Shown: positions 10,547-23,734 of the stretch, piece by piece
How positions within the stretch are numbered: position 1 is the first letter of the stretch
How the letters are laid out: the number at the start of each line of letters is the position of its first letter
Assembly (NCBI GenBank): GCA_017993235.1
Contig: JAGONC010000003.1
Span: forward strand, 1 to 64,000
DNA from: Lentimicrobiaceae bacterium
GTDB taxonomy: Bacteria; Bacteroidota; Bacteroidia; Bacteroidales; JAGONC01
Direction of reading: 5' to 3'
DNA: 64,000 nt
Program-made: the position numbers and the translations under genes
Notes under the pieces: generated by a model
What the model was told of the DNA's origin: nothing
The model's input: only the letters and a program-made list of their open reading frames with translations
Database searches by the model: none

Positions 10547-11532
10547 ACCAGCAGGCTGCAACCGCGTATGTCGCTGGCGTCGAATCTTCCGAGCACTTCA
10601 AAAGATCCATCGGGGAAGGTCTTTCCCAGGTCCTGTGTGGCCACGAAGGAGCAGGAGTGCAGGTTGGCAAGGTCAATGATGTTCATGCCGCCTGTCTGAT
10701 CATGACCAGCGAGGCAGAGCGGGTCATTCATGTCGCGGATCAGGATCCGCATCCAGGGTGGGGCAACGTAGCGGCCATGTCCCTGGGAGTAGGCCTGCGA
10801 TAGGAGTTCGGTCATGCCGTATTCCGAATGAATGGCAGGAACACCAAATCCACGGATCAAACGCTCATGGAGCTCCTCACGGATCAGCTCTTTTCTGCGC
10901 CCTTTCATTCCCCCGGTTTCCATAACGATCAGATCAGGAAAATCCATGGGGTGATTTTCAGCAAAGTCCAGCAGGGCGAAGGTCACCCCAAAAAGGATGG
11001 TGGGTTGGCAGGCGCTCTTTGCTTTTTGCAGCATGCCAAATAAAGCATCGGGTACATCAGGATAAAAACCGCTATCCGGATGATCGCCCGCGGTAATCAG
11101 TTTATCCACCATATAGACCAGGGAGGAGTCCTGGCGGGATGAATAGGAGGGAAGCAGAGCAAGGATGCAATACCGGGAACTTTTCCCGTAGAACCGTTCA
11201 AAGCAGGTCATGAAACTCGCTTCATACAGGGCGGCATCTGCCACTTCATGCCGGCTGGGCTCCATGCCGGTGGTCCTGCTGCTCAGAAAAGTCATCTCCG
11301 TTTTGAAATCCCCGGTCACAACCCGGTGGGTCTTGAAAAATGATACGGGGAGGAAAGGTATCGCTTCCGGGTGGTTGACAGAATCCGGATTGATACCCAG
11401 CTGGTGAATGTATTCCCGGTAAATGGGATTATTTTCCCACTGGTAATGAAATATCTTCAGGGCCAGTACGTTAAAATTATCAGGAGACCGAATACAGAAG
11501 ATGTTTTTTTTAATTTCCTGCAGGGAGATCAT
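10543..11532 (-). CDS. LuxE-like acyl-protein synthetase / adenylating enzyme
   Basis: The 329-residue product belongs to the LuxE family of ANL-type adenylating enzymes, which activate an acyl group with ATP. Visible signs are FLPVSFFKTHRV, FLSSRTTGMEPSRHEV (a nucleotide-binding-loop-like segment), VMETGGMKGRRKEL and IHSEYGMTELLSQAY, the latter matching the YGMTE adenylate motif. ATG 11532 was chosen because it starts at the conserved MISLQEIKKN rather than a 12-residue extension. It is a single gene with no lux partners, so light production is not implied; in Bacteroidota such orphans are common and their substrates unknown. Confidence 0.75.
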   Translation of the reverse strand: MISLQEIKKNIFCIRSPDNFNVLALKIFHYQWENNPIYREYIHQLGINPDSVNHPEAIPFLPVSFFKTHRVVTGDFKTEMTFLSSRTTGMEPSRHEVADAALYEASFMTCFERFYGKSSRYCILALLPSYSSRQDSSLVYMVDKLITAGDHPDSGFYPDVPDALFGMLQKAKSACQPTILFGVTFALLDFAENHPMDFPDLIVMETGGMKGRRKELIREELHERLIRGFGVPAIHSEYGMTELLSQAYSQGHGRYVAPPWMRILIRDMNDPLCLAGHDQTGGMNIIDLANLHSCSFVATQDLGKTFPDGSFEVLGRFDASDIRGCSLLV

Positions 11533-11586
11533 GCTGGAAGCCTGTTTGAAAGTAACTTTGCTGGACAATACCCGTAGGATCCTTAT

Positions 11587-12114
11587 ATGAAACCGATATC
11601 AAAGATACTGTTAATCCTTGTCATTCCGACCCTGTTCATCTTCCAGTCGTGCCTGGAGCAGGTGGAGTTTCCCATTGAGCCGTACATTGAGCTCAACAGC
11701 TTTGCAAAGATCATTGACAGCACGGGTATTGATAACAGGGGCATTATCGAGATTTCTTACCAGGATGGCGATGGAGATATCGGTCTGACGGAACTGGATA
11801 CCCTGCCAGGATGGGAATACAACCTGTTCATCCGTTATTTTGAAAAGATCGATGGCACGTTTGAAGAGGTTTTCATCACCTATTATGACCAGGATTCGCT
11901 GAAGCTGGATACCATTTTCATGAACGGACGTATCCCTTTACTAACACCTGCCGGAAAAAACAAAGCGATTAAAGGCATTATTCAGGATACGTTGTTTATC
12001 AACAATTATTCATCACCTTACGACACCATCCGTTTTGAAGTATACATAAAAGACAGGGCCTTTCATGAAAGCAACCATGTCACCACACCTGAGATCTGGG
12101 TTAAGAAACAGTGA
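11587..12114 (+). CDS. Putative lipoprotein of unknown function
   Basis: The product has 175 residues with a lipoprotein signal peptide (MKPISKILLILVIPTLFIFQSC), Cys 22 being the likely lipidation site. The mature part is rich in Asp and beta-type segments, with an acidic run ISYQDGDGDIGLTELDT and an end TTPEIWVKKQ. Proteins of this texture occur widely in Bacteroidota without an assigned role. It starts 54 bp from the divergent LuxE-like gene and abuts the minus-strand anti-sigma gene at its end, with no space for a separate terminator. Confidence 0.6.
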   Translation: MKPISKILLILVIPTLFIFQSCLEQVEFPIEPYIELNSFAKIIDSTGIDNRGIIEISYQDGDGDIGLTELDTLPGWEYNLFIRYFEKIDGTFEEVFITYYDQDSLKLDTIFMNGRIPLLTPAGKNKAIKGIIQDTLFINNYSSPYDTIRFEVYIKDRAFHESNHVTTPEIWVKKQ

Positions 12115-12552
12115 TCAGAAAAGATAGCTTTTTTTCATTGTCAATTTCCGGAGAATCCTGTCGAACAGAAAAAGCACGGCCACTCCGATCCCGATGATCA
12201 GGGGCAGGGATGAGCGTGTAAGAAATGCAAAGGATTTGGAAAGGCTTTGCACGAAGGACTGGAAGAACGGCACGAGCTTCTCGTATTGTTGAAAATCAAT
12301 GTTATCGGGATTCAGGTCAACAGGTGACCATTGGAGCAAAAAGACCACGAAAGCGATGACTGCGATGACCGCGAGGATTATTTTCCATACATTTTTCCGG
12401 GAAAATAGGCTATGTGCAAGGGAGGCTTCAGGAACGGGTTCGTGCTGGATGCGTTCCATCACGTTCCGGGTAAAATCTTCCGGAGCCGGTGACCTGCCGG
12501 ATTTTTTCACCAGCGCTCTGAGTCTATCGTCGTTGATGAACGTTTCTTTCAT
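12115..12552 (-). CDS. Probable anti-sigma factor, membrane-anchored
   Basis: The product has 145 residues. It opens with a soluble segment of about 50 residues (SPAPEDFTRNVMERI is the family-like part) followed by a strong membrane segment (IILAVIAVIAFVVFLL), a short extracytoplasmic stretch, and a second one (LPLIIGIGVAVLFLF). It overlaps the sigma factor gene by 4 bp, which is typical for a co-translated sigma/anti-sigma pair. It lacks a zinc-binding HxxxCxxC motif, so it would bind sigma by another fold. The assignment rests mainly on context and membrane layout. Confidence 0.7.
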   Translation of the reverse strand: MKETFINDDRLRALVKKSGRSPAPEDFTRNVMERIQHEPVPEASLAHSLFSRKNVWKIILAVIAVIAFVVFLLQWSPVDLNPDNIDFQQYEKLVPFFQSFVQSLSKSFAFLTRSSLPLIIGIGVAVLFLFDRILRKLTMKKSYLF

Positions 12553-13133
12553 GATATTTGTTTTTCGTGAACAGGGACGTTACATTGAATCCTGTTCAGT
12601 ATCTGATAAAGTCTTTTCCTTGTCCGGTACAGCCTGACTTTTATGTTTGCCTGGCTCAGTCCCGTGATTTGGCTGATTTCCCCGACTGACTGGTCCTCCA
12701 TGTAAAACAGGGTGATCAGCAGATGATCTGCCGGTGGAAGTTCATTCAGTGCTCTGGAGATCAGTTGTTGTTGCTGGATTTCATCCTGTACGGATATCCT
12801 GTAATGGATATCATCTGATGGGTAGTCATCGGCCAGGTTATCCTCCAGGGGTGTTGTTTCCGGTTGTTTCTTCCGCAGCACCGAGATGGATTCGTTATGT
12901 ACGATCCGGTAGAGCCAGGTCGTAAATTTGGAATCGTTGCGAAAGCTCCCCAGGGAGCGGTACACTTTTACAAAGGCATCCATGGCGATTTCCTCCGCAT
13001 CCTCCCGGTTGCCCGTAATCCGCAACGCCAGCGAAAAGGCGTTATTTTTATGCCTTTCGACGAGCGCTGCAAAGGCGGCCGTATCTCCTTCGAGCACTTT
13101 TTCGATATAAAACCGGTCATCCTTTTCGGGCAT
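12549..13133 (-). CDS. ECF RNA polymerase sigma factor
   Basis: The product has 194 residues with region 2 (HKNNAFSLALRITGNREDAEEIAMDAFVKVYRSL, FTTWLYRIVHNESISVLRKK) and region 4 (LNELPPADHLLITLFYMEDQSVGEI, GLSQANIKVRLYRTRKRL). These are the core-binding/-10 and -35 recognition parts of extracytoplasmic-function sigma factors. It is followed by its likely anti-sigma factor (4-bp overlap). The upstream region holds an inverted GGTTACAAA / TTTTGTAACC pair whose GTAAC core is typical of ECF -35 elements, suggesting autoregulation and control of the divergent small membrane protein. Confidence 0.93.
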   Translation of the reverse strand: MPEKDDRFYIEKVLEGDTAAFAALVERHKNNAFSLALRITGNREDAEEIAMDAFVKVYRSLGSFRNDSKFTTWLYRIVHNESISVLRKKQPETTPLEDNLADDYPSDDIHYRISVQDEIQQQQLISRALNELPPADHLLITLFYMEDQSVGEISQITGLSQANIKVRLYRTRKRLYQILNRIQCNVPVHEKQIS

Positions 13134-13164
13134 GATGATGGTTTGACGGGAATGAGGGGGTGTT

Positions 13165-13199
13165 GGTTACAAAGATATGATAAATAATATTTTGTAACC
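13165..13199. promoter_or_regulatory. Divergent ECF-type promoter elements (inverted GTAAC)
   Basis: GGTTACAAA at 13165-13173 and TTTTGTAACC at 13190-13199 form an inverted pair. Each half provides a GTAAC -35-like core, one facing the sigma gene and one facing the gene at 13263. A GTAAC core also occurs upstream of the VIT-VWA gene at 35063. This fits ECF autoregulation but is inferred. Confidence 0.5.
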
Positions 13200-13262
13200 G
13201 GAACGATGTACGTTGCGTCAAAAAGGTGCAGTTAAAAAAATTCACTTTAAAAATATCGCATT

Positions 13263-13580
13263 ATGGAAGGCATTTTTGTTCCGATCAGCGTTTTTGGGAT
13301 GATCCTGGGGATCGTATACCTGGTCATCAGAAAGCGCGAGCGTTTGGCCCTTATTGAAAAAGGAGTCGATGCTTCAATTTTCATGACGAAAAAACAGACC
13401 AATGCAACATTGAAGTGGGGTTTATTCTTTATCGGATTGGGTATAGGACTGCTGGTCGCTGAAATCCTGGTCAAAACCACCACCATGTCTGATGAGGCTG
13501 CTTATTTCTCGATGATTTTTCTGTTCGGCGGAGTTGCGTTGCTGGTCAGTTATTTTTTAGATAGGAGAAAGGAGAAATGA
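13263..13580 (+). CDS. Small membrane protein, DUF6249-like
   Basis: The product has 105 residues: an N-terminal membrane segment (VPISVFGMILGIVYLVIR), a short charged loop (KRERLALIEKGVDASIF), and two more membrane segments (WGLFFIGLGIGLLVAEIL and MIFLFGGVALLVSYFL). Proteins of this type often sit beside ECF sigma/anti-sigma genes in Bacteroidota and may belong to the regulon. The divergent GTAAC promoter supports that. The last codons (DRRKEK) are encoded by the start of an AGGAGAAA word repeat. No function is known to me. Confidence 0.7.
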   Translation: MEGIFVPISVFGMILGIVYLVIRKRERLALIEKGVDASIFMTKKQTNATLKWGLFFIGLGIGLLVAEILVKTTTMSDEAAYFSMIFLFGGVALLVSYFLDRRKEK

Positions 13581-13634
13581 GAAATGAGAAATGAGAGAGG
13601 AGAAATAGGTCGGACAATTATTTCTCCTCTCTCA
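13563..13634. repeat. GAGAAATGA word repeat with a 16-bp hairpin at a convergent junction
   Basis: Tandem AGGAGAAATGAGAA words lead into a perfect 16-bp inverted repeat (13592-13607 with 13619-13634, 11-nt spacer). It contains the stop codon of the upstream gene and reaches the stop codon of thpR on the other strand. A related word patch lies at 33270-33311, also at a convergent junction. The hairpin may act as a bidirectional terminator. Confidence 0.75.
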
Positions 13635-14189
13635 TCTCAGAACAAAGTTCTCAATCACCTTATAAACCGGCCCTGTGGGCTGAAGTATACTTTCGAACAG
13701 ATACAGTTCCCGCACCGTTTCCCTTTGGAGAAAATCTTCCCGACGCATCAGGATTACTTCCTGGAAGAATCGTTTGTCGCGGATGAATTTGATCCTGCCG
13801 ATGGTCAGGTGGGGGACGAAGTTTTGTGAGTCAGGCACGTAGCCCAGTTTCCCGATTTCTTCCCACATATTTGCATACAGCTGTTGCAGGGCGGGGTTGG
13901 TTTCGATCCCGAGCCAGACCACGCGGGGGTCGTATTTACTTCCAAAGATGCCTGTGCCTTTGAGTTCCAGTTTAAATCCGGCGGAACGGCCGGCGGCAGC
14001 CTTCAAGGCCTGTCGGATCGCGGGAATCCTTTCCTCTTCGGTTTCCCCGAAGAATTTCAGGGTCAGGTGGAGGTTATATTCTTCCACCCATTTGATCTTT
14101 TCCTCGTGGAGGTTCTTTTTCAGGAACCGGAACACTTCGAGCAGTGTATCGGCGGGGTGGAGTTTTATGGCGACGAAGAGGCGTTTCAT
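13632..14189 (-). CDS. thpR: RNA 2',3'-cyclic phosphodiesterase
   Basis: The 185-residue 2H phosphoesterase carries the two HxT motifs, HLTLKFFGE and HLTIGRI, at the usual distance. The family opens 2',3'-cyclic phosphates to 2'-phosphates and was first described as a 2'-5' RNA ligase. ATG 14189 gives the canonical MKRLFVAIK start; the longer frame adds 17 residues encoded by an AAATTCCAAA word repeat and is not credible. The stop codon lies in a hairpin repeat shared with the convergent neighbour. Confidence 0.92.
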   Translation of the reverse strand: MKRLFVAIKLHPADTLLEVFRFLKKNLHEEKIKWVEEYNLHLTLKFFGETEEERIPAIRQALKAAAGRSAGFKLELKGTGIFGSKYDPRVVWLGIETNPALQQLYANMWEEIGKLGYVPDSQNFVPHLTIGRIKFIRDKRFFQEVILMRREDFLQRETVRELYLFESILQPTGPVYKVIENFVLR

Positions 14190-14251
14190 GGTAAATTCCA
14201 AAATCCAAGTACCAAATTCCAAACAAATCCCAAAATCCAAATTTCAAAGCT
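14190..14251. repeat. CCAAATTCCAAA word repeat, copy 1
   Basis: Imperfect tandem words of the type AAATCCAAATTCC and CCAAACAAATCCCAAA lie upstream of thpR. The same words recur at 31503-31620, partly as an inverted pair. Confidence 0.7.
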
Positions 14252-14320
14252 TAAAGCCGTTAGCTGAAAACTGTCAAGTGTCAATCCACTGCAAGGTAGT
14301 CAGAAAAAAGCGATCAGCGG

Positions 14321-14349
14321 TTGCATTTAAGGTAAAATGTGTAATTTTG
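14321..14349 (+). promoter_or_regulatory. Promoter of tRNA-Ala
   Basis: TTG at 14321-14323 and TAATTTTG at 14342-14349, 18 nt apart, match the Bacteroidetes -33/-7 elements. Transcription would start near 14356. The leader is a low-complexity run of CACCCACA words (about 14350-14385). Confidence 0.6.
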
Positions 14350-14389
14350 CACCCACACTCACACCCACACCGACACCCACACCCTCTTC

Positions 14390-14463
14390 GGGGCATTAGC
14401 TCAGTTGGCTAGAGCGTTTGACTGGCAGTCAAGAGGTCAGGGGTTCGACTCCCCTATGCTCCA
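14390..14463 (+). tRNA. tRNA-Ala (GGC)
   Basis: A 74-nt cloverleaf with acceptor GGGGCAT/ATGCTCC that includes the G3-U70 wobble pair, the main alanine identity element. The anticodon stem is TTTGA/TCAAG with loop CTGGCAG, giving anticodon GGC; the T arm is AGGGG/CCCCT with loop TTCGACT. CCA is not encoded. The 3' end is duplicated at 23711-23734 and is the integration site of the mobile element. Confidence 0.96.
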
Positions 14464-14466
14464 CCC
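14443..14466 (+). other. attL, overlapping the tRNA-Ala 3' end
   Basis: A 24-bp segment from the T loop to three bases beyond the gene is repeated at 23711-23734 with a single mismatch (C versus G in the T loop). Integration here leaves the tRNA gene intact, as usual for tRNA-specific tyrosine integrases. Confidence 0.9.
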
Positions 14467-14691
14467 GACAAATTAACGGAAATGGCTTGTATCAATGGAT
14501 ACAGCCATTTTTTTATTTTTGTTAATATCAATATTACACTCATTTTATGCTCCGTTTCTTAAATTTGGCGATTAATAATTGTTAATAACTATCCCGTTGC
14601 CTGGAAACCATTTTTTAAAAAAGTATTGTTCAGACGTTCATATTTTTCATGTTTTTCATAAAAGATCATCGGTGCGATGTAATATGTAGCC

Positions 14692-14706
14692 GTGTCATTA
14701 TGACAC
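14692..14706. promoter_or_regulatory. Operator-like palindrome 1 (GTGTCATTATGACAC)
   Basis: A perfect dyad of GTGTCA arms with a 3-nt centre. Identical arms recur at 14897, 15070 and 16286, all inside the element. Confidence 0.65.
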
Positions 14707-14896
14707 CACTGGAGCCGTAAAAATTAAAAAAGTGGTCAAAAACCTTGACAAGATTTGAAAAGTCATAAATTACGGTCCCCAAAAGACATATATAGGGTAG
14801 GTAAATGTCAAATATACAACTAATTGATTTACAGTGGTGTTTTTTTTTCATTTGGCCTGTAATGAGACATTATGTTAACTAAAATTTCTTTCAACG

Positions 14897-14911
14897 GTGT
14901 CATAGTGACAC
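14897..14911. promoter_or_regulatory. Operator-like palindrome 2 (GTGTCATAGTGACAC)
   Basis: The same dyad as at 14692; here the symmetry extends one base further on each side (GGTGTCA and TGACACC). Confidence 0.65.
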
Positions 14912-15069
14912 CGTTTCTGGCAGGTTACCGGATGATCTCAAACCATGACAGGACAACAGATGCAGGAAAGTAAAAAAAATATCCCCACACAAAAAAAATA
15001 TCAACTGATCATTGATTCAGCTAACTGTCTGTAATTGATAAGGATATGAAGATAAGAACACTGGAAACG

Positions 15070-15084
15070 GTGTCACAGTGACAC
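15070..15084. promoter_or_regulatory. Operator-like palindrome 3 (GTGTCACAGTGACAC)
   Basis: The dyad ends 29 bp upstream of the -33 element of the promoter at 15114, a distance more typical of an activator site or of a repressor acting by looping. Confidence 0.65.
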
Positions 15085-15113
15085 ACTAAGTAATTGATTA
15101 TTAGCAAAATAAA

Positions 15114-15145
15114 TTTGCTTTTTACAAATTCACGTATTAGTTTTG
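15114..15145 (+). promoter_or_regulatory. Bacteroidetes-type promoter for the 15175 gene
   Basis: TTTG at 15114-15117 and TAGTTTTG at 15138-15145 are 20 nt apart, an exact match to the consensus. The predicted start near 15152 leaves a leader of about 23 nt before ATG 15175. Confidence 0.75.
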
Positions 15146-15174
15146 CTGGCACTAACCATTAAAAAACAAGCAAA

Positions 15175-15561
15175 ATGGAAACACAAACAACCGAAACCAG
15201 ACCGGCAAAAATCACAATTGATCGCGCAACCGTTCAGGGAGCTGTACCCCTGTTTACCCAGATCAGCGGTATGTACCTCAACTATGTATCAAATCAAAAT
15301 GACAGGGCGGTAATCGCCTGCTCCGAACTTAGGCGGCTCATGCTGGACCTTTCCGAAGCATCCGAACAGAAGGGGATGGACATTTCCGAGTTTGTCAACC
15401 TTCTGAACTATCTGGACGATGATCAGCATTACCTCCTGCACCCACAACTGCAGGACATGATGCAATGTCGGATGGTCCTCGACAGGAACAGGGTACTGAT
15501 TGAAACCTTGAGGGACTATTTGGATCAATTCTGCGATCAGTTGTCACGGGAAATTCAATAG
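15175..15561 (+). CDS. Element-encoded acidic helical protein, unknown
   Basis: The product has 128 residues, without signal peptide or membrane segment. It is acidic, predicted mostly helical (for example CSELRRLMLDLSEASEQK and RVLIETLRDYLDQFCDQLS), and starts with a Thr/Glu-rich tail. I recognise no family. It is the first gene of the plus-strand arm, driven by a strong promoter next to the palindromic operators, so an early or constitutively expressed role such as regulation or phage interference is possible. This is context only. Confidence 0.7.
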   Translation: METQTTETRPAKITIDRATVQGAVPLFTQISGMYLNYVSNQNDRAVIACSELRRLMLDLSEASEQKGMDISEFVNLLNYLDDDQHYLLHPQLQDMMQCRMVLDRNRVLIETLRDYLDQFCDQLSREIQ

Positions 15562-15588
15562 ACTACCTTTGCAGGAACCAGCGATGCA

Positions 15589-15825
15589 ATGACCAGGATA
15601 AAAATATACGATCTGAATACCATAACGGGGAGGGAGCTGTTTGAAGTTTATACATCGGTTGAAGGGGAGTACGGTCAGACCCTTCTGACTGCATATACAA
15701 TCATCGGTGATGATCTATTCCCGATGCTGGAGGAGTGCCATCGTACCGGCAAAAAGATTGACCTGAAGATTACCCCTGGATACGAGCACGTATACGATCC
15801 CCCATTGGATATTGTGATTGAATGA
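15589..15825 (+). CDS. Element-encoded small protein, unknown
   Basis: The product has 78 residues beginning MTRIKIYDLNTITGRELFEVYTS. It appears to form a compact alpha/beta fold with an acidic end, and has no known motif. It lies 27 bp after the preceding gene in the same direction, so the two are probably co-transcribed. The function is unknown to me. Confidence 0.65.
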   Translation: MTRIKIYDLNTITGRELFEVYTSVEGEYGQTLLTAYTIIGDDLFPMLEECHRTGKKIDLKITPGYEHVYDPPLDIVIE

Positions 15826-15900
15826 CAAAACAGGTGTAAGATTAGGATCTGAATATTAAAAAACTTCTTATATTTACACGGATCTTAACGTTCTTTTCTT

Positions 15901-15955
15901 GGTAAGGTGGGGTCAGAGGTAAGGTAAGGTAAGGTAAGGTACGGAATGGTAAGGG
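15901..15955 (+). repeat. AAGGT short tandem repeat
   Basis: At least four uninterrupted AAGGT units (15921-15940) lie within a longer run of GGTAAGG-like words. The run is about 50 bp upstream of the small zinc-binding protein gene. Pure pentanucleotide runs can change length by slippage. Confidence 0.75.
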
Positions 15956-15988
15956 AATAATTTAGTAATAATATTAATCCTAAATCCC

Positions 15989-16165
15989 ATGAGTGCAAAA
16001 GTCATGAAAGTCGTTAATCCCCATACGGGATTAATGCAATGCAAAGTTTGTGGCTGTTATCATTCACCAGAACTCCGCGCGGGCGGTTATTTCAAACGTG
16101 GTTCTTGGCAGTGTCTTAATGGCTGCAAACTTGAAGACCTGAAATCTGATCAGGAAGAAGGGTAA
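15989..16165 (+). CDS. Small Cys-rich (zinc-ribbon-like) protein
   Basis: This 58-residue frame starts at ATG 15989 and ends at TAA 16163-16165. The product opens MSAKVMKVVNPHTGLMQC and has the metal-binding pattern CKVCGC, a His soon after, then WQCLNGC, with an acidic tail. Similar small proteins with VNPHTG, a CxxC pair and RGSWQC occur in phages and mobile elements of this phylum. It ends just before a terminator hairpin, as a genuine last gene of a transcript would. Confidence 0.7.
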   Translation: MSAKVMKVVNPHTGLMQCKVCGCYHSPELRAGGYFKRGSWQCLNGCKLEDLKSDQEEG

Positions 16166-16176
16166 TTTTGAGATCA

Positions 16177-16213
16177 GAAGGGTCCTAACTGGTTAAGGGG
16201 CCCTTCCTTTTTG
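16177..16213 (+). terminator. Intrinsic terminator after the plus-strand arm
   Basis: GAAGGGTCC pairs with GGGGCCCTTC across an 11-nt loop and is followed by CTTTTTG. It lies 12 bp after the stop of the small zinc-binding protein gene. Confidence 0.75.
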
Positions 16214-16231
16214 TTTTCATTTTTTGCGAGT

Positions 16232-16260
16232 AAAGCCGGGACCCGAAACCCGGCTTTTTT
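16232..16260. terminator. Second, strong bidirectional terminator
   Basis: AAAGCCGGG pairs perfectly with CCCGGCTTT across an 8-nt loop, followed by a T run. It separates the converging arms of the element. Confidence 0.85.
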
Positions 16261-16285
16261 ATTGATCGGGGAAATCGGGAAAAGT

Positions 16286-16300
16286 GTGTCACAATGACAC
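16286..16300. promoter_or_regulatory. Operator-like palindrome 4 (GTGTCACAATGACAC)
   Basis: The fourth copy of the dyad lies between the two converging arms, 26 bp after the double terminator and away from any promoter I can see. Confidence 0.55.
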
Positions 16301-16472
16301 GGATCGGGCCATTGCTATACTCGAAAGGGGGGCTTCGGGGTTCATTCTGGCAATGCAAAGCGATCCAAATATAACTATTTGCCGTGCCTTTGCCCAAAAG
16401 GTATCAATGTACCACTTTACAGCTGATCGCCTTTCTTGTGGCCCCGCATGAAGCCACTGGCCATTTCAGGGG

Positions 16473-16826
16473 TCATTGATCATCCCCTCCCATTAAATCC
16501 TGGATATTTTTCCTTTTCTGTCTGGCAATTTCTCTGACCCGATCCAAAAGTTCATCCGGCACCTCCGATTTAGGTTTTTGGGTGGGCCAGCCTTTTTCAT
16601 CTGTCCGTCGCTTTGCATTGTATGTGTCATCCATTGCCTCGGAAGCGGACTTCTCCGCGTCTTTCGCCGCGATCCAGTCGCGGATAGCCTCCGGGAATGA
16701 GAATTTTTGCGGGTTCTGTGACTTTTCCAGTTCATCCATTTCCCTGTGAAGGTCATCCAGTCGTTCCATTATAATCCTTACCCATTCCGGGGCTTCGCTT
16801 TCGTTATTAAATTCGTTGTCTGTCAT
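16473..16826 (-). CDS. Element-encoded charged helical protein, unknown
   Basis: The product has 117 residues, strongly charged and helical, with a segment WVRIIMERLDDLHREMDELEK that could form a coiled coil and a basic end (RVREIARQKRKNIQDLMG). No family is recognised. It is the last gene of the minus-strand arm, 29 bp after the tail-hub-like gene. A chaperone or assembly partner of that protein is one possibility, but nothing in the sequence proves it. Confidence 0.6.
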   Translation of the reverse strand: MTDNEFNNESEAPEWVRIIMERLDDLHREMDELEKSQNPQKFSFPEAIRDWIAAKDAEKSASEAMDDTYNAKRRTDEKGWPTQKPKSEVPDELLDRVREIARQKRKNIQDLMGGDDQ

Positions 16827-16855
16827 TGGTAATATTGGTTTTTGATTAATAGAAA

Positions 16856-19003
16856 TTATCCCATGTAATATTTTTCATTCTTAGAATTCCGGGACAATGT
16901 AATAAGCCGCCCCTCGTGGTCATTTAAAGCACTGACAAGCCTTCCCGGAAGGTTCAGGGGTGCGTAGTTGCCCAGCGTCACTTTCCAGATGGCATTTTTC
17001 GAATAAAACTCGTGTGTGATGTCCACCACTCGTAACTGTCTGGCAAACAGCCCTGCGATGTTAATGGTGATCAGATCCCCGGCCTTAAACAGATTCACCA
17101 GTGGGTCAAGGTCGTAATGCACCACCGGCGATTCACCAAGCAGGGTGTATTGCTGATCGGTGGCCTGTTTGACCCAGACAGGATCAATATCTACTTCAGC
17201 GATCTCATTCAGGGTTGAGTAATCCAGGTATTGATCCTGACCCCACTCCAGCAAGTCTTCTTCTGCTGTCGTGACATAGGATTCAGGCATATTGATCTCG
17301 GTGATCACATAGGTATCGCCAACATTAAACTGATATGATGTTCCGGTTAGGGAAGGTATATCCTGTCCGCTTTCTTCAGTGAACGGTATCAGCTCTATTT
17401 CGTTTGTGCCCGGAGTAAATGATTTTATTGCGAAGCCGTACCCTGACAGGTTACCGGAGTTGAATGTCAGACGCGCGTCCACTCTTGCGATCCGGTAAAT
17501 GGTATTGCCCCCCCCATCCTTTGCGTTCAGGTCGAAATCCAGGTTGCTGACAAACTTATACTCCGTGGTTTTGCTGACAACTGTCAGGCTGCTTTTGGGG
17601 TAAATGTCTTCATTGATCGCCACGGATTCAATGCGACCATTTCGTGCGACGGCTTCCTCATCGTAAATAAATCCATCTGTCCGCGATGCGGTACTGATGG
17701 ATATATAGACATGATCAACATACAGATTCGCACCACTACCCCACGTACCCGTCATAATAATCCCCACCTGCTCAATCAGATAGCTAACGCACCCAAAATC
17801 TTTCATCGGGATCACTATTTCCTGCCATTTACCAATGTTTTCCGTGGAAAAACCGTACATTCCACTACTCAGCTCGACATTTCTCATGGTTCCATCTGTA
17901 ACCAGGACAATCATCAGGCGTGCCTTGGCGAAATCATAGGAACCAGACCCCTGCAGATCCAGATATACCCATAAATGCAGCGTACCATCGCTGGCATCAT
18001 ACGGATCATCCCCGTTGACTATTTTGATGATCTGGCCCGTAATAGTCGAACCGGATATGTACGGATAAATCTTCATAGCAGTGGTGCCATGATAAACAAA
18101 GTCGGTGGAAGCGAAATCCACAAGCACACCCAGAATGTCGTTGCCCTCTGAAGCTGTCCAGTTGCCACTTACGGTGCCATCATCGAAAATAACCTCCTGT
18201 TCATCTGGTACTGTACCCGTTTCAACCCGGAGCCTTTTCACCCCCCCCTGATAATCATAAGGAATGTTCCGGGTGCTACCCAGCACATGGAGAGCCGTGG
18301 CAAATGGCCGGTCTGAGCTCCCTGCCATCTTAAACGATCCCAGCCCGTCACCAACGGTATAAACATGGTCGTGTATCCTGCACTCATTGGTAAGGTCAAG
18401 TGTAATGGTGCTGCCTGAAAGTGATGTCCGGTATGGCAGCTTGAACGCCTCTGAAACCTTTCGCAGGGCTGTCAAACAGTTGTCATTGTCGAAGGTCAGC
18501 AGCAGGTCGTTTGTGGTGTCATCCACCTTTCCCACCGCCCAGGTTTCACTGATGGGATCAGCAACGGGCTCGGTGCGGTTCATATTCGTACAGATCAAAG
18601 TCAGGAAGTCCGTGGCTGTACCTACCAGCGAAAAGGATAGGTTCCAGCCATCGCCCTTTGAGTCCTGGTTAAAGAACAACTTGGTTTCCAGCAAGTGTAT
18701 GTTACCGGAGAATACCATTTCGTAAATGAAATGCTTACTCGAAATGCGTTCTATTGAAGGGGGTGCCAGCAGGATATAACCACCGGCACCGTCTGTCGTA
18801 TCATAGAAGATCCTGGCACCCAGAACGACCGGGATCATGCGATTGGAATGTACGGTCAGCTTCACCTCACTGGCTCCCTGGTATTCGTCGGAGTATTCAC
18901 CGGAGGCGATGAAGCACTTGGTGTAATCCTGGCCCTCTGACTTGCCTCCCAGGGCAATGACAGTGCCGTCTGGATTTATGATATTTACAAAAGTTGCACT
19001 CAT
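16856..19003 (-). CDS. Phage tail-hub/receptor-binding-like protein with embedded carbohydrate-binding-like domain
   Basis: The product has 715 residues and no signal peptide. Residues 1-260 and about 445-715 look like the two halves of a phage tail hub: the segment FDNDNCLTALRKVSEAFKLPY and the ending KNAIWKVTLGNYAPLNLPGRL are typical of tail-associated proteins in phages of this phylum. Between them, about residues 271-436, lies a beta-sandwich-like module (WTASEGND, TLHLWVYLDLQGSG, GKWQEIVIPMKDFG, YVDHVYIS) that resembles carbohydrate-binding domains. It is the only tail-type gene in the element and lies 18 bp after the terminase-like gene. I infer that it modifies the tail of a helper phage, but a remnant of a decayed prophage is the alternative. 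Confidence 0.65.
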   Translation of the reverse strand: MSATFVNIINPDGTVIALGGKSEGQDYTKCFIASGEYSDEYQGASEVKLTVHSNRMIPVVLGARIFYDTTDGAGGYILLAPPSIERISSKHFIYEMVFSGNIHLLETKLFFNQDSKGDGWNLSFSLVGTATDFLTLICTNMNRTEPVADPISETWAVGKVDDTTNDLLLTFDNDNCLTALRKVSEAFKLPYRTSLSGSTITLDLTNECRIHDHVYTVGDGLGSFKMAGSSDRPFATALHVLGSTRNIPYDYQGGVKRLRVETGTVPDEQEVIFDDGTVSGNWTASEGNDILGVLVDFASTDFVYHGTTAMKIYPYISGSTITGQIIKIVNGDDPYDASDGTLHLWVYLDLQGSGSYDFAKARLMIVLVTDGTMRNVELSSGMYGFSTENIGKWQEIVIPMKDFGCVSYLIEQVGIIMTGTWGSGANLYVDHVYISISTASRTDGFIYDEEAVARNGRIESVAINEDIYPKSSLTVVSKTTEYKFVSNLDFDLNAKDGGGNTIYRIARVDARLTFNSGNLSGYGFAIKSFTPGTNEIELIPFTEESGQDIPSLTGTSYQFNVGDTYVITEINMPESYVTTAEEDLLEWGQDQYLDYSTLNEIAEVDIDPVWVKQATDQQYTLLGESPVVHYDLDPLVNLFKAGDLITINIAGLFARQLRVVDITHEFYSKNAIWKVTLGNYAPLNLPGRLVSALNDHEGRLITLSRNSKNEKYYMG

Positions 19004-19021
19004 AATGATTGGTTTATAGGT

Positions 19022-19450
19022 TTAGTCATCGTCTTCTCCCGGATCGTTCGGGAATGATCCACCGTTCCCCCGTCCGGGTGCCAGATCATCCCTCAATCTT
19101 TCGGGCCAGCGGTTATGCTTCAAAACAAACAACTGCTCGTAGGTCAGTGATTCCATGAAGTCACTCAATTCCAGATTGGTATTGCTGATCTCCGCGTCAA
19201 CCTGTTCCATTTTCGGCAATACGAACGGCAGAAGCTTTGCGATTGTGTCAAGGTATTCCTTCGCGTCCTTTTGCCTGACCTCATCCAGCGCGGCTTCAAT
19301 GTGCGGGACCTGTTTGTCCATGATCGCAACCAGGATTTCCCTGGCATTCTTTGTAATCTTTTCCGGGTTCCCGGCTCCGCGTCCTGGACCGCCCCCCGTG
19401 CCAATGGTGAAACGTCCGTTGCGATCTCGTTTAATGGCTGTATTTTCCAT
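19022..19450 (-). CDS. Putative small-terminase-like (DUF5681-type) protein
   Basis: The product has 142 residues. ATG 19450 gives MENTAIKRDRNGRFTIG. The N terminus has a glycine- and arginine-rich segment (GTGGGPGRGAGNPEK) followed by a helical core (ITKNAREILVAIMDKQVPHIEAALDEVR) and an acidic tail. This texture matches the DUF5681-type proteins that often stand in the position of small terminase subunits, which bind the packaging site. It follows the helicase and small HTH genes, as terS does in phage-inducible islands. The homology is a pattern judgement, not a search result. Confidence 0.45.
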   Translation of the reverse strand: MENTAIKRDRNGRFTIGTGGGPGRGAGNPEKITKNAREILVAIMDKQVPHIEAALDEVRQKDAKEYLDTIAKLLPFVLPKMEQVDAEISNTNLELSDFMESLTYEQLFVLKHNRWPERLRDDLAPGRGNGGSFPNDPGEDDD

Positions 19451-19511
19451 AATTTGTCCTTTCTGTTTAAACATTATTTTTGTCCTATTTAGACCGATTC
19501 TAAATAGGTGA

Positions 19512-19754
19512 TTAATTTTCGCTTAATAACCTGGATACCTGCTCCTGGGTTATCCCCAGGATTTCACTGATCTGGTCCACTGGCATTCCACGGGCCTTCA
19601 GCTCGTGCGCTTTTTCGATCAGTGACATTTCTTTGAACCGGGCTGCCTGCCTTTCCCAATACCGATCCTGGCTGGCCCGCACCAGGTCTGGATTTTTTTT
19701 GCGCCACGACCGGAGGTACGCGCGCCTGATACTTTTTGCTTCTTCTGAAATCAT
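19512..19754 (-). CDS. Small HTH DNA-binding protein
   Basis: The product has 80 residues. The N-terminal half is a basic segment (RRAYLRSWRKKNPDLVRASQDRYWERQA) common in small phage and mobile-element proteins. The C-terminal half is a helix-turn-helix of the resolvase/sigma type (ELKARGMPVDQISEILGITQEQVSRLL). It could regulate the downstream packaging-type genes or bind the GTGTCA palindromes; neither is shown. Confidence 0.65.
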   Translation of the reverse strand: MISEEAKSIRRAYLRSWRKKNPDLVRASQDRYWERQAARFKEMSLIEKAHELKARGMPVDQISEILGITQEQVSRLLSEN

Positions 19755-19834
19755 ATCTATGTTTTTGGGTTAATAAATTATAGCATCCATATTGTTGTTT
19801 AGAATCATTAAAAAAAATATTATTTTCCCCAGGC

Positions 19835-19901
19835 CTTCACCTTTTTCACCTTTTTCACCCATTTTTCGATAAAAGCGATGAAAAAGGTGAAAAAAGTGAA
19901 G
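19835..19901. other. Candidate replication origin: inverted GGTGAA iterons
   Basis: Left arm CTTCACCTTTTTCACC-TTTTTCA and right arm TGAAAAAGG-TGAAAAAAGTGAAG form a long inverted repeat around an AT-rich centre. Read in repeat units, it has three GGTGAA units on one strand and two GGTGAA/AGTGAA units on the other. P4 replicates from GGTGAACAG-type iterons recognised by its helicase-primase; a helicase gene of that family ends 22 bp away here. A role in ori function is inferred. Confidence 0.55.
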
Positions 19902-19922
19902 CTTCAAACAAAACATTTTTTT

Positions 19923-21401
19923 TTAGAACGGTAATTGATCATCTGAATTTGCGTTGTCAATGTTGCTGTAACCGTTGACCGGCAGTGGTTCCGTGTGATT
20001 TTCCTGCTCTTTTTCAATGTAAACCTTATTCCCATACTTGTCCTTATCAATAACATACCGAAGATATTTTAACCGCTGCTGAAAATTTGCCTTGCTCAAT
20101 GCCCTGAACCCATCTTCCAGACAATAACCTTTATACTCTGCATAAAGATCCTTCAGTAACATTGTCCTTTGGTTCTTTGTGCTTCTCACATAATCATTAT
20201 CATATAAAAACATCCCCACGCTGTCGCTGGTCCGCTGGTATTCATCGACCTGCTGCCGGATAACATCGCTGTGAGTGAATCCACGTTGCTTCAGCACCCG
20301 CCCCAATCCTGCCAGCACCCAGTTAAACACACCGGCCAGCTCTGAAGCGATGATCTTCTGTGCAAGCTCCGGGTCCTGCTCTTCCTCCGGTATGGTCACA
20401 TTGAACGGGATGATCAGAAACCTCCGGAAGTATGCCTGGGTATGCTCAACATCTCTGGGAAGCGAATTACAGTTGAATATCAGCTTTGCGTAATTTGTCA
20501 GCATGAACGGATCTTTATAAGGAAGGCGTGCCTCCACCGGCTCTCCGCTTACCAGTTGTTTGAAGATCGAAGCTTCTAGGCTGCCATTGATCTCCGAAGC
20601 GTAATTCAGCAGCTTATCAGCAAGCATCGCCCGGTAATATCCCGATTCATTCGTTAAGCTTTGAAGCGAATAGCTCGAAACGTTGCCAGATCCCAGCAGC
20701 GCACTGATCACATCGAAAAATACGCTTTTACCGTTGGCACCGGTGCCGTAAAGGATCAAAGCCTTTTCCAGCTTCAGCGTGCCTGTTTGAATGAACACAT
20801 AACCGAGAAATTCACTCAATATGCCCTGCAATGTCGCATCCGGAAGCACCCGATCCAGATACCTCTTAAATATCGGAGCCTCCGCTTGGTCATTGTATGC
20901 AAAGGGAAGCTGGTAGGTTAAAAAATCTTCCGCCGCAAACTGCCTAAGGTACCCACCCATTCCATTAATCTCGTAGGTGCCGTTCTGAAGATTGATCATT
21001 ACAGCGTTATCCGGTTGCGTGGCGCTGGGAAGATGTGCTAATGTCCGAAACTCTTTTAGCAACATATCCCGGAAAGGATAATGTCTGGCTGTAAACGAAT
21101 TGATACCCATCTTCTCTGAAGCCTTACCCAAAAATATTTCCATCTCCTCGTCAAAGACTTTTGACCAGAACGTACCGTTATACAGATAAATGCAGGCGTT
21201 ACGCTGGCACATCCCCCAGTTATTGTCCGCAGCCAGGCGAAGGATCTCCTCCACGGTCAAAATTAAAAGGTGCCGTGTTTTGATCTTCTCGTCTTCTTCA
21301 CCGATCAGCTCCCTGAAGTCGATAGGGCGTACCTTATCCAGCAGCTTTGCCAGGATGTCGATATGTCGTAGCGGCTTATGAATGATTACCTCTGTTTCCA
21401 T
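19923..21401 (-). CDS. SF3 helicase, phage/plasmid P4-D5 family
   Basis: The product has 492 residues. The C-terminal two thirds carry the superfamily 3 helicase motifs: Walker A YGTGANGKS (residues 218-226), Walker B KLLNYASEI (263-271) and motif C AKLIFNCNSLP (305-315). The preceding D5_N-like segment is present (YLDRVLPDATLQGILSEFLGYVF). The N terminus is too short for a primase (AEP or Toprim) domain, so it must rely on a host primase or act only as origin helicase. It ends in SDDQLPF, like the acidic tips of single-strand-binding proteins. The start overlaps the upstream coiled-coil gene. It is the replication protein of the element. Confidence 0.88.
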   Translation of the reverse strand: METEVIIHKPLRHIDILAKLLDKVRPIDFRELIGEEDEKIKTRHLLILTVEEILRLAADNNWGMCQRNACIYLYNGTFWSKVFDEEMEIFLGKASEKMGINSFTARHYPFRDMLLKEFRTLAHLPSATQPDNAVMINLQNGTYEINGMGGYLRQFAAEDFLTYQLPFAYNDQAEAPIFKRYLDRVLPDATLQGILSEFLGYVFIQTGTLKLEKALILYGTGANGKSVFFDVISALLGSGNVSSYSLQSLTNESGYYRAMLADKLLNYASEINGSLEASIFKQLVSGEPVEARLPYKDPFMLTNYAKLIFNCNSLPRDVEHTQAYFRRFLIIPFNVTIPEEEQDPELAQKIIASELAGVFNWVLAGLGRVLKQRGFTHSDVIRQQVDEYQRTSDSVGMFLYDNDYVRSTKNQRTMLLKDLYAEYKGYCLEDGFRALSKANFQQRLKYLRYVIDKDKYGNKVYIEKEQENHTEPLPVNGYSNIDNANSDDQLPF

Positions 21402-21714
21402 ATTTCAAAGCGATTTCTAAATGATTCTCCAATTCCTTAACCCGATCCTGAAGCTGGCCGCTGTGGTATGCCAGCTCTGCATTATCCATTTCCAGCTGCG
21501 AAATGTATCCTTCCATCCGGTCGATCTCTCTCCGGATGTGTCCTGGAAGCTGCCATGAATGCAGGCGATCCGTGGGAATGAACAGGTGTGAGTCCATGTC
21601 AATAAAGTATTGAATGATGCTCGCACATCGTTTCATTTCCAGTGCCTCCAGTGAAATATTGCCTCTGGCCGGAGCCGTGGCGCTTATGGCCGTTCGTTCA
21701 GACTGCGGAGCCAT
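21376..21714 (-). CDS. Small coiled-coil protein
   Basis: The product has 112 residues if read from ATG 21714, with a coiled-coil segment near the end (REIDRMEGYISQLEMDNAELAYHSGQLQDRVKELENHLEI). An in-frame ATG at 21765 would lengthen it by 17 residues but overlap the HTH gene more. It overlaps both neighbours (31 and 26 bp), which indicates translational coupling. The function is unknown. Confidence 0.6.
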   Translation of the reverse strand: MAPQSERTAISATAPARGNISLEALEMKRCASIIQYFIDMDSHLFIPTDRLHSWQLPGHIRREIDRMEGYISQLEMDNAELAYHSGQLQDRVKELENHLEIALKYGNRGNHS

Positions 21715-21944
21715 TCCAAAACCTCGTTTTTGCGATACAGATACAGCCGACCGGAATTGAAGCATGGTAATCCCTTCTTCTTTAAACCCCAGACTGTCAC
21801 CTTGCTCACTCCCAGGAACTCCGCTAACTCCTTATCGTTTCGCAGGATGCCGTCCACTGGATCCGGCGGGATCTGGATTTTCCCGACAGCATCCTCAATG
21901 ATTTGAGTCAGTTCTTCTGGTGTGGTCATAATAATTTTGTTCAT
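21684..21944 (-). CDS. Excisionase/AlpA-like HTH protein
   Basis: The product has 86 residues with a winged-HTH of the MerR/excisionase class (NDKELAEFLGVSKVTVWGLKKKGLPCFNSGRLYLYRKNEVLEWLRSL). Such proteins bend DNA at att sites or activate satellite genes (AlpA in Gram-negative islands). ATG at 21944 or 21929 could both be used. It is the second gene from the integrase, though the integrase has its own upstream region between them. Confidence 0.8.
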   Translation of the reverse strand: MNKIIMTTPEELTQIIEDAVGKIQIPPDPVDGILRNDKELAEFLGVSKVTVWGLKKKGLPCFNSGRLYLYRKNEVLEWLRSLNERP

Positions 21945-22081
21945 GCCTGTAAAAATTTAGGATTAATAGATAATTGAAGCATCCGGAGCAAATGCCCGGA
22001 GCTGATATTTCGCAAATGATGTTGGTGGAGGATCAGCGGGATCGCTGTTGATACTTCAGAGGATAAAATTTTACCGAAGTA

Positions 22082-22112
22082 TTGTAATCTATTGAATTTT
22101 ATACTACTTTTG
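22082..22112 (+). promoter_or_regulatory. Promoter of the candidate sRNA
   Basis: TTG at 22082-22084 and TACTTTTG at 22105-22112 are 20 nt apart, matching the phylum consensus. It reads toward the terminator at 22168-22206, on the strand opposite to all nearby genes. Confidence 0.7.
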
Positions 22113-22118
22113 TTCATG

Positions 22119-22208
22119 ACAAAAGACGGTTCCTATTGGAATTGTTTTTTGACTCTGGAAGAAGGAAACAGCCGCCAGCCCTTTGCCAAAAGATAGGCGG
22201 CTTTTTCA
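22119..22208 (+). ncRNA. Candidate ~90-nt small RNA of the element
   Basis: The promoter predicts a start near 22119 and the hairpin GCCGCC (22171-22176) / GGCGGC (22196-22201) plus T run predicts an end near 22207. The interval contains no credible gene. It could be an antisense-type or trans-acting RNA, comparable in position to the small regulatory RNAs of P4-like satellites, but no target was identified. A very short peptide is the alternative. Confidence 0.45.
22168..22206 (+). terminator. Intrinsic terminator of the candidate sRNA
   Basis: A 7-bp stem AGCCGCC / GGCGGCT with a T run on the plus strand. The integrase, on the minus strand, ends only at 22324, so the hairpin could also serve as its terminator from the other side, although there are fewer T residues in that direction. 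Confidence 0.7.
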
Positions 22209-22323
22209 TTTTATCTATGCTTCGTCAATCTGTAATAAGAACGCGCTACAAATTTACGGATAAATATGCCCAAATACGGTAAAAGTTTTCGACAGTCACT
22301 AATTAGTTATACCTTTAATCACT

Positions 22324-23568
22324 TCAGTTGAATTTTTGCATTTCCTTTTCCTTATGCTCCTGGAATATAGCGTAATACTCCTCCATGATCTTATGTGTCC
22401 GGTGACCGGTAATGTCCATAATGACTTCAGTACGGATGCCCAGTGCTATTGCAATGGCAACGAAGCTCCTTCGTGCTGCATGACATGATAATAGATCGTG
22501 CCTGGCCTTAATGGTTTCGATCCTTTGTGATCCCCGATAGCTGATCAGTGTTACCGGATCATTCATACCGGCGATCTTCCCGATCGTCTTCAATGCCTGG
22601 TTAAACTTTTGATTCGTTATGACCGGAAGGACTTCTGGCTTTGGATAATCTTTATACCGGTCGAGAATCGCCCTGGAATAGTTATTCAATGGAATCTTCA
22701 GATCCTGTCTTGTTTTGATTGTCGTAATCTCGATACAATCATCTTTGATGTCGGTTTTTTTCAGATTCTGAAGGTCACTGAATCGTAATCCGGTAAAGCA
22801 CATAAGACAAAATCCATCCCGCACCTTATCCAAATGTTCGGGAAGATCAGCATTGTAAATGTTCAAAACCTCCTCCATTGACAGGATGACCTTATTGGTT
22901 GTCGGCTTTTTTGCCTGCTCCTCCCGGATTCCAGGTGCCTTAAATGTGCGGTAATCCCTCCTGGCCTTATGGATGTATCCCTGTTCATCTGCCCATGCCA
23001 GAAACCAGTGAAGGATACCGGTGTATTTGATCACCGTGGCATTGATCATCTGTCGGTCGAATAACAGATAATCGACAAACCGAGAATAGAAATTCTTATC
23101 CAGCGAATCGAATGTAATGCTGTATCTTTTTTTATTTTCGAACTCCTGAAGGTGCTTGTAAAGGCTCTTATGTTTTTTTCTCGTGGCCTCGCTGTTAAGC
23201 TTCAGATGCGATTTAATGAAGTAATCGTAAATCTCAAAAAATCCCTTTGGTCGCTTGCTGTAAATGGAAATACGTTGCTTCATGTACTCTTTGGAAGGCC
23301 ATATATTCTCACTGCGAGCATCCCAGTAAATCTTCCTCACTTCCTGCTCCAGATCATCCAGGAACTTATTGATGATAAGGTATCCTATCGCCCCGGCCCT
23401 GACCCGTTGCTTTTCCGTATTCCAATACTTCGCATCGCACCGGTGACCCGTGGGCCGCTTCAGACGCATACCCTCCCAGGTGAACGTAAAGCATATCGGA
23501 ACATCTTTGATGATCAGCTTACCATTTTCATCCCTCCGCTTTTCAATATTGAATCTGACCCGTGCCAT
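22324..23568 (-). CDS. int: Tyrosine recombinase (integrase)
   Basis: The 414-residue product has an N-terminal arm-binding region (MARVRFNIEKRRDENGK), a SAM-like core-binding domain (residues about 110-210) and the catalytic domain with Arg262 (TGLRFSDLQNL), Lys285 (TIKT), His363-Arg366 (CHAARRSF), His389 (TGHRTH) and Tyr398/399 (EEYYAIF). It belongs to the Bacteroidetes mobile-element group and catalyses insertion at tRNA-Ala. ATG 23568 was chosen over 23598 because a TATATTTG -7 box (23595-23588, minus strand) lies between them. It is at the right end of the element and reads away from attR. Confidence 0.95.
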   Translation of the reverse strand: MARVRFNIEKRRDENGKLIIKDVPICFTFTWEGMRLKRPTGHRCDAKYWNTEKQRVRAGAIGYLIINKFLDDLEQEVRKIYWDARSENIWPSKEYMKQRISIYSKRPKGFFEIYDYFIKSHLKLNSEATRKKHKSLYKHLQEFENKKRYSITFDSLDKNFYSRFVDYLLFDRQMINATVIKYTGILHWFLAWADEQGYIHKARRDYRTFKAPGIREEQAKKPTTNKVILSMEEVLNIYNADLPEHLDKVRDGFCLMCFTGLRFSDLQNLKKTDIKDDCIEITTIKTRQDLKIPLNNYSRAILDRYKDYPKPEVLPVITNQKFNQALKTIGKIAGMNDPVTLISYRGSQRIETIKARHDLLSCHAARRSFVAIAIALGIRTEVIMDITGHRTHKIMEEYYAIFQEHKEKEMQKFN

Positions 23569-23710
23569 TTGTGTAAACTTGATAAGACAAATATACACTC
23601 AATAATTATTAATCTATTTTAATCCTGCAAAATTTTATTAACAATAAAAAGCCCTATATTTGGGCATTTCAGAATGTATATAAATTCTGCGAATCTGTAA
23701 AATATCCTAT

Positions 23711-23734
23711 GTTCGAGTCCCCTATGCTCCACCC
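23711..23734 (+). other. attR with 3' fragment of tRNA-Ala
   Basis: The 24-bp copy of the tRNA 3' end, with one mismatch to 14443-14466. The hairpin just after it is probably the original terminator of the tRNA gene, pushed 9.3 kb away by the insertion. Confidence 0.9.

Follow-up and report, generated by a model that had tools for sequence, protein, structure and literature searches.

Knowledge of phage satellites comes mainly from Proteobacteria and Firmicutes. Of the described systems closest to the locus considered here, phage-inducible chromosomal islands (PICIs) are described as being without phage structural genes (PMC6092414), and the search model for phage-inducible chromosomal minimalist islands (PICMIs) pairs the DUF5906 family with DUF3987 (PMC10803314). 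A literature search of partial coverage returned no described satellite family in Bacteroidota, a result that is a lead rather than proof. The locus lies in positions 1 to 64,000 of contig JAGONC010000003.1 (assembly GCA_017993235.1) from a Lentimicrobiaceae bacterium (Bacteroidales); this whole stretch of 64,000 nucleotides (nt) is referred to as the window. An insertion of 9,268 bp, measured as the start-to-start distance of its repeats, lies there between the 3' end of a tRNA-Ala gene and a 24-bp repeat. Judged from its sequence, this element is probably a phage satellite of Bacteroidales, and it carries a lone gene for a phage tail hub.

The insertion site is defined by three features, given in window coordinates.

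14390..14465, + strand: tRNA-Ala (GGC), the integration target (ARAGORN; the same tRNA sequence at the empty site in genome G179)
14443..14466, + strand: attachment (att) repeat, tRNA side (repeat search; comparison with G179)
23711..23734, + strand: att repeat, integrase side (repeat search)

The att direct repeats are 24 nt long and 96% identical, with the one mismatch stated in a preliminary description of this DNA that was made from the sequence alone. The tRNA-Ala site, occupied here, is empty in G179, a genome of the same genus, in which both window flanks are contiguous around an intact tRNA-Ala (75/75 identical). Window positions 11109-14464 correspond to positions 11549-8208 of the G179 locus (L229), the sequence from 23790 onward corresponds to L229 from 8146, and the element is absent between them. 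Because both flanks are joined at an intact tRNA-Ala, the repeat pair is not a product of chance, and the element is a real insertion. An integrase at one end and a superfamily 3 (SF3) helicase, both named in the preliminary description, were clear by Pfam and PHROGs. The lack of conjugation, capsid, portal and large terminase genes, which it had also reported, agrees with the same searches, where no open reading frame (ORF) of the element that was tested matched a relaxase, large terminase, portal or capsid.

The tail gene contains an additional segment.

16856..19003, - strand: tail hub protein, 715 amino acids (aa) (phrog_19846, 1e-59; Riemerella siphophage tail proteins; Foldseek)
17684..18220, - strand: extra domain inside the hub, residues about 262-440, about 175 residues (alignment gap; not present in any phage hub aligned)

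Three lines of evidence bear out the earlier assignment of the 715-aa protein as a tail hub. It matches phrog_19846, whose members are long, uncharacterised proteins of phages. By tblastn it aligns with a Riemerella siphophage tail protein in two blocks of 28-30% identity, and in phage RAP44 the homologous tail gene follows the genes for the tape measure and for a further tail protein. A low-confidence structural model (mean pLDDT 54) gave top Foldseek matches that are mostly hubs or spikes, including a diffocin baseplate (7e-8), the Bxb1 tail tip, a monocin tip, the 80alpha baseplate and a Neisseria tail protein. Alignment to phage hubs showed that the window copy is an intact ORF which keeps the hub core and a conserved motif, and that it stops at the point where phage hubs run on into C-terminal extensions. 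The extra domain had no match in Pfam, the PDB or phages.

A survey of 295 genomes of the order, with 15 hub homologues examined, found every one of them (15/15) in a full tail module behind an ORF of tape-measure size (1000-1800 aa). Only the window copy stands alone; the ORF list, Pfam and PHROGs revealed neither a tape measure nor other late genes near it in the element. In a class-level genome sample the window hub had no close relatives, degenerate DNA patterns for the hub matched phage hubs only, and single-protein scans of IMG/VR and genome contigs with the window hub or helicase returned no relative.

Relatives of the helicase were recovered by an alignment-based search after the single-protein query had given none. 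They are 44-60% identical and lie in small elements of Bacteroidota, Balneolota, Legionellales and other Gammaproteobacteria. An integrase is found at most 6.5 kb upstream of the helicase in 66 of 80 loci, and ten elements bounded by perfect repeats of 46-67 bp, several of which contain tRNA T-arm sequence, measure 7.0-13.3 kb. The usual order is an integrase, a 300-500-aa protein, HTH_17, the helicase and a DUF6371 primase-like protein, followed by small genes and cargo, for example methylases. Several family elements carry a small terminase subunit (TerS) just behind the helicase module, and these are of at least four unrelated kinds.

L134: Terminase_4
L111: Terminase_2 (6e-27)
L095: Sf6_terminase (1e-33)
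L140 and L118: phrog_309
L133: phrog_2538

L140, an IMG/VR contig of 4734 bp, is a 4.6-kb circle with a 125-bp terminal repeat that encodes the helicase, DUF6371 and a TerS that has a relative in Flavobacterium phage 1/32; it has no integrase and is perhaps a plasmid-like satellite. Scans of 89 proteins encoded next to the helicase listed, in the first 25 families of each, no relaxase, large terminase, portal or capsid. The helicase family is read as phage satellites because of the unrelated kinds of TerS, the circular TerS-bearing member, the small att-bounded elements and this lack of head or relaxase families among those listed. Two contrary patterns had been named in the preliminary description, homologues always embedded in full prophages or always beside relaxase genes, and the families listed for these neighbours show neither.

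Some further observations concern this family. The gammaproteobacterial loci (L061, L071, L089, L092, L095, L097 and L136, from Legionella and others) in some cases encode a longer helicase of about 780-810 aa, and L095 combines its Sf6-type TerS with boundary repeats of 67 bp. Two family elements occur in one genome in Polaribacter (L117/L119), Chitinophaga (L110/L114) and a Bacteroidales metagenome-assembled genome (L088/L093). The gut virus-like-particle contig MT835758, which carries the helicase, was considered as evidence of packaging and rejected, as about 10 kb of apparent host chromosome lies on the same contig.

A parallel case was found in the Flavobacterium genome G393, which holds two satellite-like elements (L133/L314 and L313), in each of which one large tail-type gene follows a TerS-like gene. 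The replicases of the two elements differ: one has a D5 helicase, the other a protein of BT4734/PriCT_2/VapE type. The two tail proteins are 46% identical over 665 residues, end to end, and their genes differ at 66% of third codon positions versus 40% of positions 1 and 2, figures given in this form since the simple ratio of nonsynonymous to synonymous divergence (dN/dS) is saturated. For the TerS-like pair, dN is 0.14 versus a dS of 1.35. In prophages, the homologues of the G393 tail protein belong to late modules that also contain a large terminase and an ORF of tape-measure size, and they are similar in length (620-719 aa) to the G393 proteins. Lone tail genes are rare, occurring in 2 of roughly 100 helicase-family loci inspected and in the non-family L313. 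Their recurrence in G393 behind packaging-type genes suggests that they are maintained in satellites, which argues against decay. No att repeat of at least 14 bp was found around the two elements in the intervals searched. L313 (G393:C1:1513001-1530000) lies outside the helicase family and has TerS-like genes together with its lone tail-type gene. For the Flavobacterium tail protein, structure prediction gave no useful information (mean pLDDT 32).

The remaining genes of the window element, from the integrase end, are as follows (HTH, helix-turn-helix).

22324..23598, - strand: tyrosine integrase (Phage_integrase 3e-11, SAM_5 1e-12; phrog_1 2e-27)
21684..21944, - strand: HTH_17 regulator of AlpA/excisionase type (HTH_17 6e-10; phrog_66 excisionase 5e-5)
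21376..21765, - strand: ORF129, overlapping the HTH_17 gene, its true start maybe further downstream (no convincing family in Pfam or PHROGs)
19923..21401, - strand: D5-type SF3 helicase, D5_N plus DUF5906 (Pfam 5e-21; PHROG primase 7e-88; relatives 44-60% identical)
19512..19754, - strand: 80-aa HTH protein (HTH80), possibly a DNA binder of small-terminase type, weak (phrog_14214 5e-10; phrog_7067)
19022..19474, - strand: DUF5681-like (GRPKG-type) protein, 150 aa (relatives at the same position, E down to 1e-7)
16473..16826, - strand: ORF117, last gene of the hub operon (ORF list, Pfam, PHROGs)
15989..16165, + strand: 58-aa Cys-rich protein with a zinc-ribbon-like pattern (read from the sequence; no Pfam match)
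15589..15825, + strand: ORF78 (no family in Pfam or PHROGs)
15175..15561, + strand: ORF128 (no Pfam, PHROG or PADLOC match of note)

Gaps of only 18-37 nt separate the genes for HTH80, the DUF5681-like protein, the hub and ORF117, and the hub gene therefore seems to share an operon with the others. Several claims of the preliminary description need revision here. Its AlpA/excisionase-like HTH protein agrees with the matches to HTH_17 and phrog_66, but the Pfam family Phage_AlpA (PF05930) was not matched. The 150-aa protein, which it had taken to be terminase-small-like, was rejected as a TerS, having no terminase family match in Pfam or PHROGs; its counterparts, which are DUF5681-like small proteins, are encoded at the corresponding place in about nine related elements, and a DUF5681 relative in Bacteroides phages lies near the integrase and not beside a large terminase. 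HTH80 matches the terminase small subunit family phrog_7067 weakly (4e-6, 35 residues only). The tail gene, described as unusual cargo, does stand alone while its homologues lie in tail modules, but from its position it appears better read as a member of a short downstream operon than as cargo. The satellite reading itself retains the tRNA-integrated element with its empty site, the PICI-like order (integrase, AlpA-type HTH, helicase, small packaging-type genes), the phylum-wide family and the lone tail gene with its Flavobacterium parallel; what it loses is the TerS identity of the 150-aa protein. Pfam recognised no primase domain in the window element, nor was DUF3987 found, and PADLOC detected no defence genes among the small ORFs.

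Candidate cis-acting features were also located.

19835..19901: origin-like hairpin of repeated 9-10-bp units directly behind the helicase gene (inverted-repeat search)
14692..14706: operator-like palindrome GTGTCATTATGACAC, with pattern copies at 14897-14911, 15070-15084 and 16286-16300 (pattern search)

Behind the helicase gene, 24 of 78 family loci passed a stem score that was reached in only 9 of 444 control windows, and this hairpin is the likeliest candidate origin of replication. Hairpins of 9-10-bp repeats behind the helicase gene are also seen in relatives (L060-L139). Allowing at most one mismatch, GTGTCANNNTGACAC has five matches in the window; four are exact and all of these lie in the element, on the tRNA side (0.10 expected by chance). 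A run of GGTAA repeats (ggtaaggtaaggtaaggta...) at about 15915-15955 lies upstream of the 58-aa Cys-rich ORF.

In tailed phages the hub nucleates the tail tip, so a hub made by the satellite could replace that of a helper phage and alter adsorption, and the extra domain fits such a role. The proposed sequence of events would begin with an infecting helper phage that triggers the HTH protein. The integrase would then excise the element, the helicase would replicate it, and the product would be packaged into helper heads. The trimeric hub of the satellite would enter helper tails in place of the helper's own, and particles from satellite-carrying cells would bear a tip with the extra domain, changing or securing which cells are entered. 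If the element is a satellite, the chances of hub substitution in helper tails are about evenly balanced, and the complete chain, a satellite that builds its own hub into helper tails, comes close to an even chance without quite reaching it. Still more tentative is the proposal of a Bacteroidota satellite class whose members insert their own tail-tip part into helper tails and so set the host range of satellite particles. Such a class might, with similar reserve, comprise the hub with an added domain described here and, in Flavobacterium, another tail-module protein carried by two different satellites.

Several points weigh against this interpretation. The satellite status of the element is predicted from sequence. 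The closest relative of the hub has 38% identity, so selection on the window copy is not directly measurable, and the mean pLDDT of the hub model is only 54. The window element is without a convincing TerS, and no cos or pac site was identified, though none was sought. Most members of the helicase family carry neither TerS nor tail genes, and the satellite status of the family therefore rests on a minority. No helper prophage was found in the host genome by searches for two common large-terminase types (Terminase_6N and Terminase_3, both absent); any helper would therefore be an infecting phage.

The alternative that survives best keeps the satellite and makes the hub an interference weapon. 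A hub without the phage C-terminal extension would enter helper tails and give dead or adsorption-defective phages, with the host protected or heads freed for the satellite. This explanation, although on the unlikely side, draws on the length of 14 of the 15 prophage hubs in the order (927-1785 aa), compared with a core of roughly 540 aa here without the insert, and on the Tai systems of PICIs and P4-like elements, which block tail assembly via the central tail fibre (PMC11364771). However, short hubs do occur in real phages (L242, 629 aa, with a separate 934-aa gene adjoining; L055, 745 aa), poisoning does not need an extra domain, and in the Flavobacterium parallel the tail genes roughly match their prophage homologues in length (620-719 aa). 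Between substitution and interference by the hub, the data favour neither decisively.

It is rather improbable that the element is a non-phage integrative element, for example one mobilised by conjugation, which acquired a phage tail gene by chance. The composition of most family members (integrase, HTH, helicase, primase and cargo such as restriction-modification genes, with TerS in a minority) would suit this explanation. Against it stand the lack of a relaxase in the window element and among the families listed for the 89 neighbouring proteins, the independent TerS of several families, the circular TerS-bearing member and the genome with two TerS-like plus tail cassettes. That the element is a prophage in decay, with integrase, helicase and hub retained after the loss of the head genes and most of the tail genes, is very improbable: the hub is clearly phage-derived and the related phages are tailed siphophages, but across the phylum the helicase family is found in small elements bounded by att sites and alike in size and gene order, there was no sign of other phage genes as pseudogene fragments, and the genes are intact and tightly spaced, with the hub behind family-specific genes.

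A phage satellite thus remains the preferred reading of the window element. If confirmed, it would add a phylum-wide satellite family and a new strategy, in which a tail hub rather than a head is supplied, and how satellites set their own host range would become directly testable. With a hub of its own, the element may be able to rebuild the tail of its helper phage or to sabotage it.

Compared with known systems, the element differs from P4-like satellites in that no ORF tested had a Pfam or PHROG match to psu, delta or sid, and from integrative mobilisable elements in having no relaxase match. The MiniFlayer/MulchRoom satellites (PMC10690885) and the Charybdis elements (PMC12324425) are likewise small and have some tail-type proteins. 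However, MiniFlayer is non-integrating and has genes for a capsid, for terminases and for tail fibres of its own, whereas Charybdis elements are archaeal-linked, without known replication genes, and have fibre-like protrusions instead of a hub. Capsid-forming PICIs (cf-PICIs) are alike in that the satellite supplies part of the virion itself, but they present a mirror image: they provide heads and terminases and use the tails of the helper, while the window element brings a single tail part and no capsid, portal or terminase genes.

Gram-negative PICIs such as EcCICFT073 (PMC6092414) share with the window element an integrase at one end, the absence of large terminase and capsid genes, and a chromosomal att site. 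Its HTH_17 regulator and its helicase with the origin-like hairpin resemble their AlpA-type regulator and their replication gene with a nearby origin, and for their terS, which is optional, the weakly matching HTH80 is the possible counterpart. The window element is unlike them in its HTH_17 rather than Phage_AlpA regulator, its tRNA-Ala site, its tail hub and its phylum; it is not filed as a PICI because it carries a structural gene, the hub at 16856-19003. The PICMI search model (PMC10803314) finds its integrase, AlpA (PF12728 allowed) and DUF5906 primase all present here, and PICMIs are also very small, lack capsid-remodelling genes and have helpers that need not be resident prophages. In contrast, the window element sits in tRNA-Ala rather than fis, has no DUF3987, carries an extra hub operon and belongs to a host outside Vibrionaceae; because PICMIs sit at fis in Vibrionaceae, it is not filed with them. 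By this comparison, the element would work most like a PICI or a PICMI, while being filed as neither.

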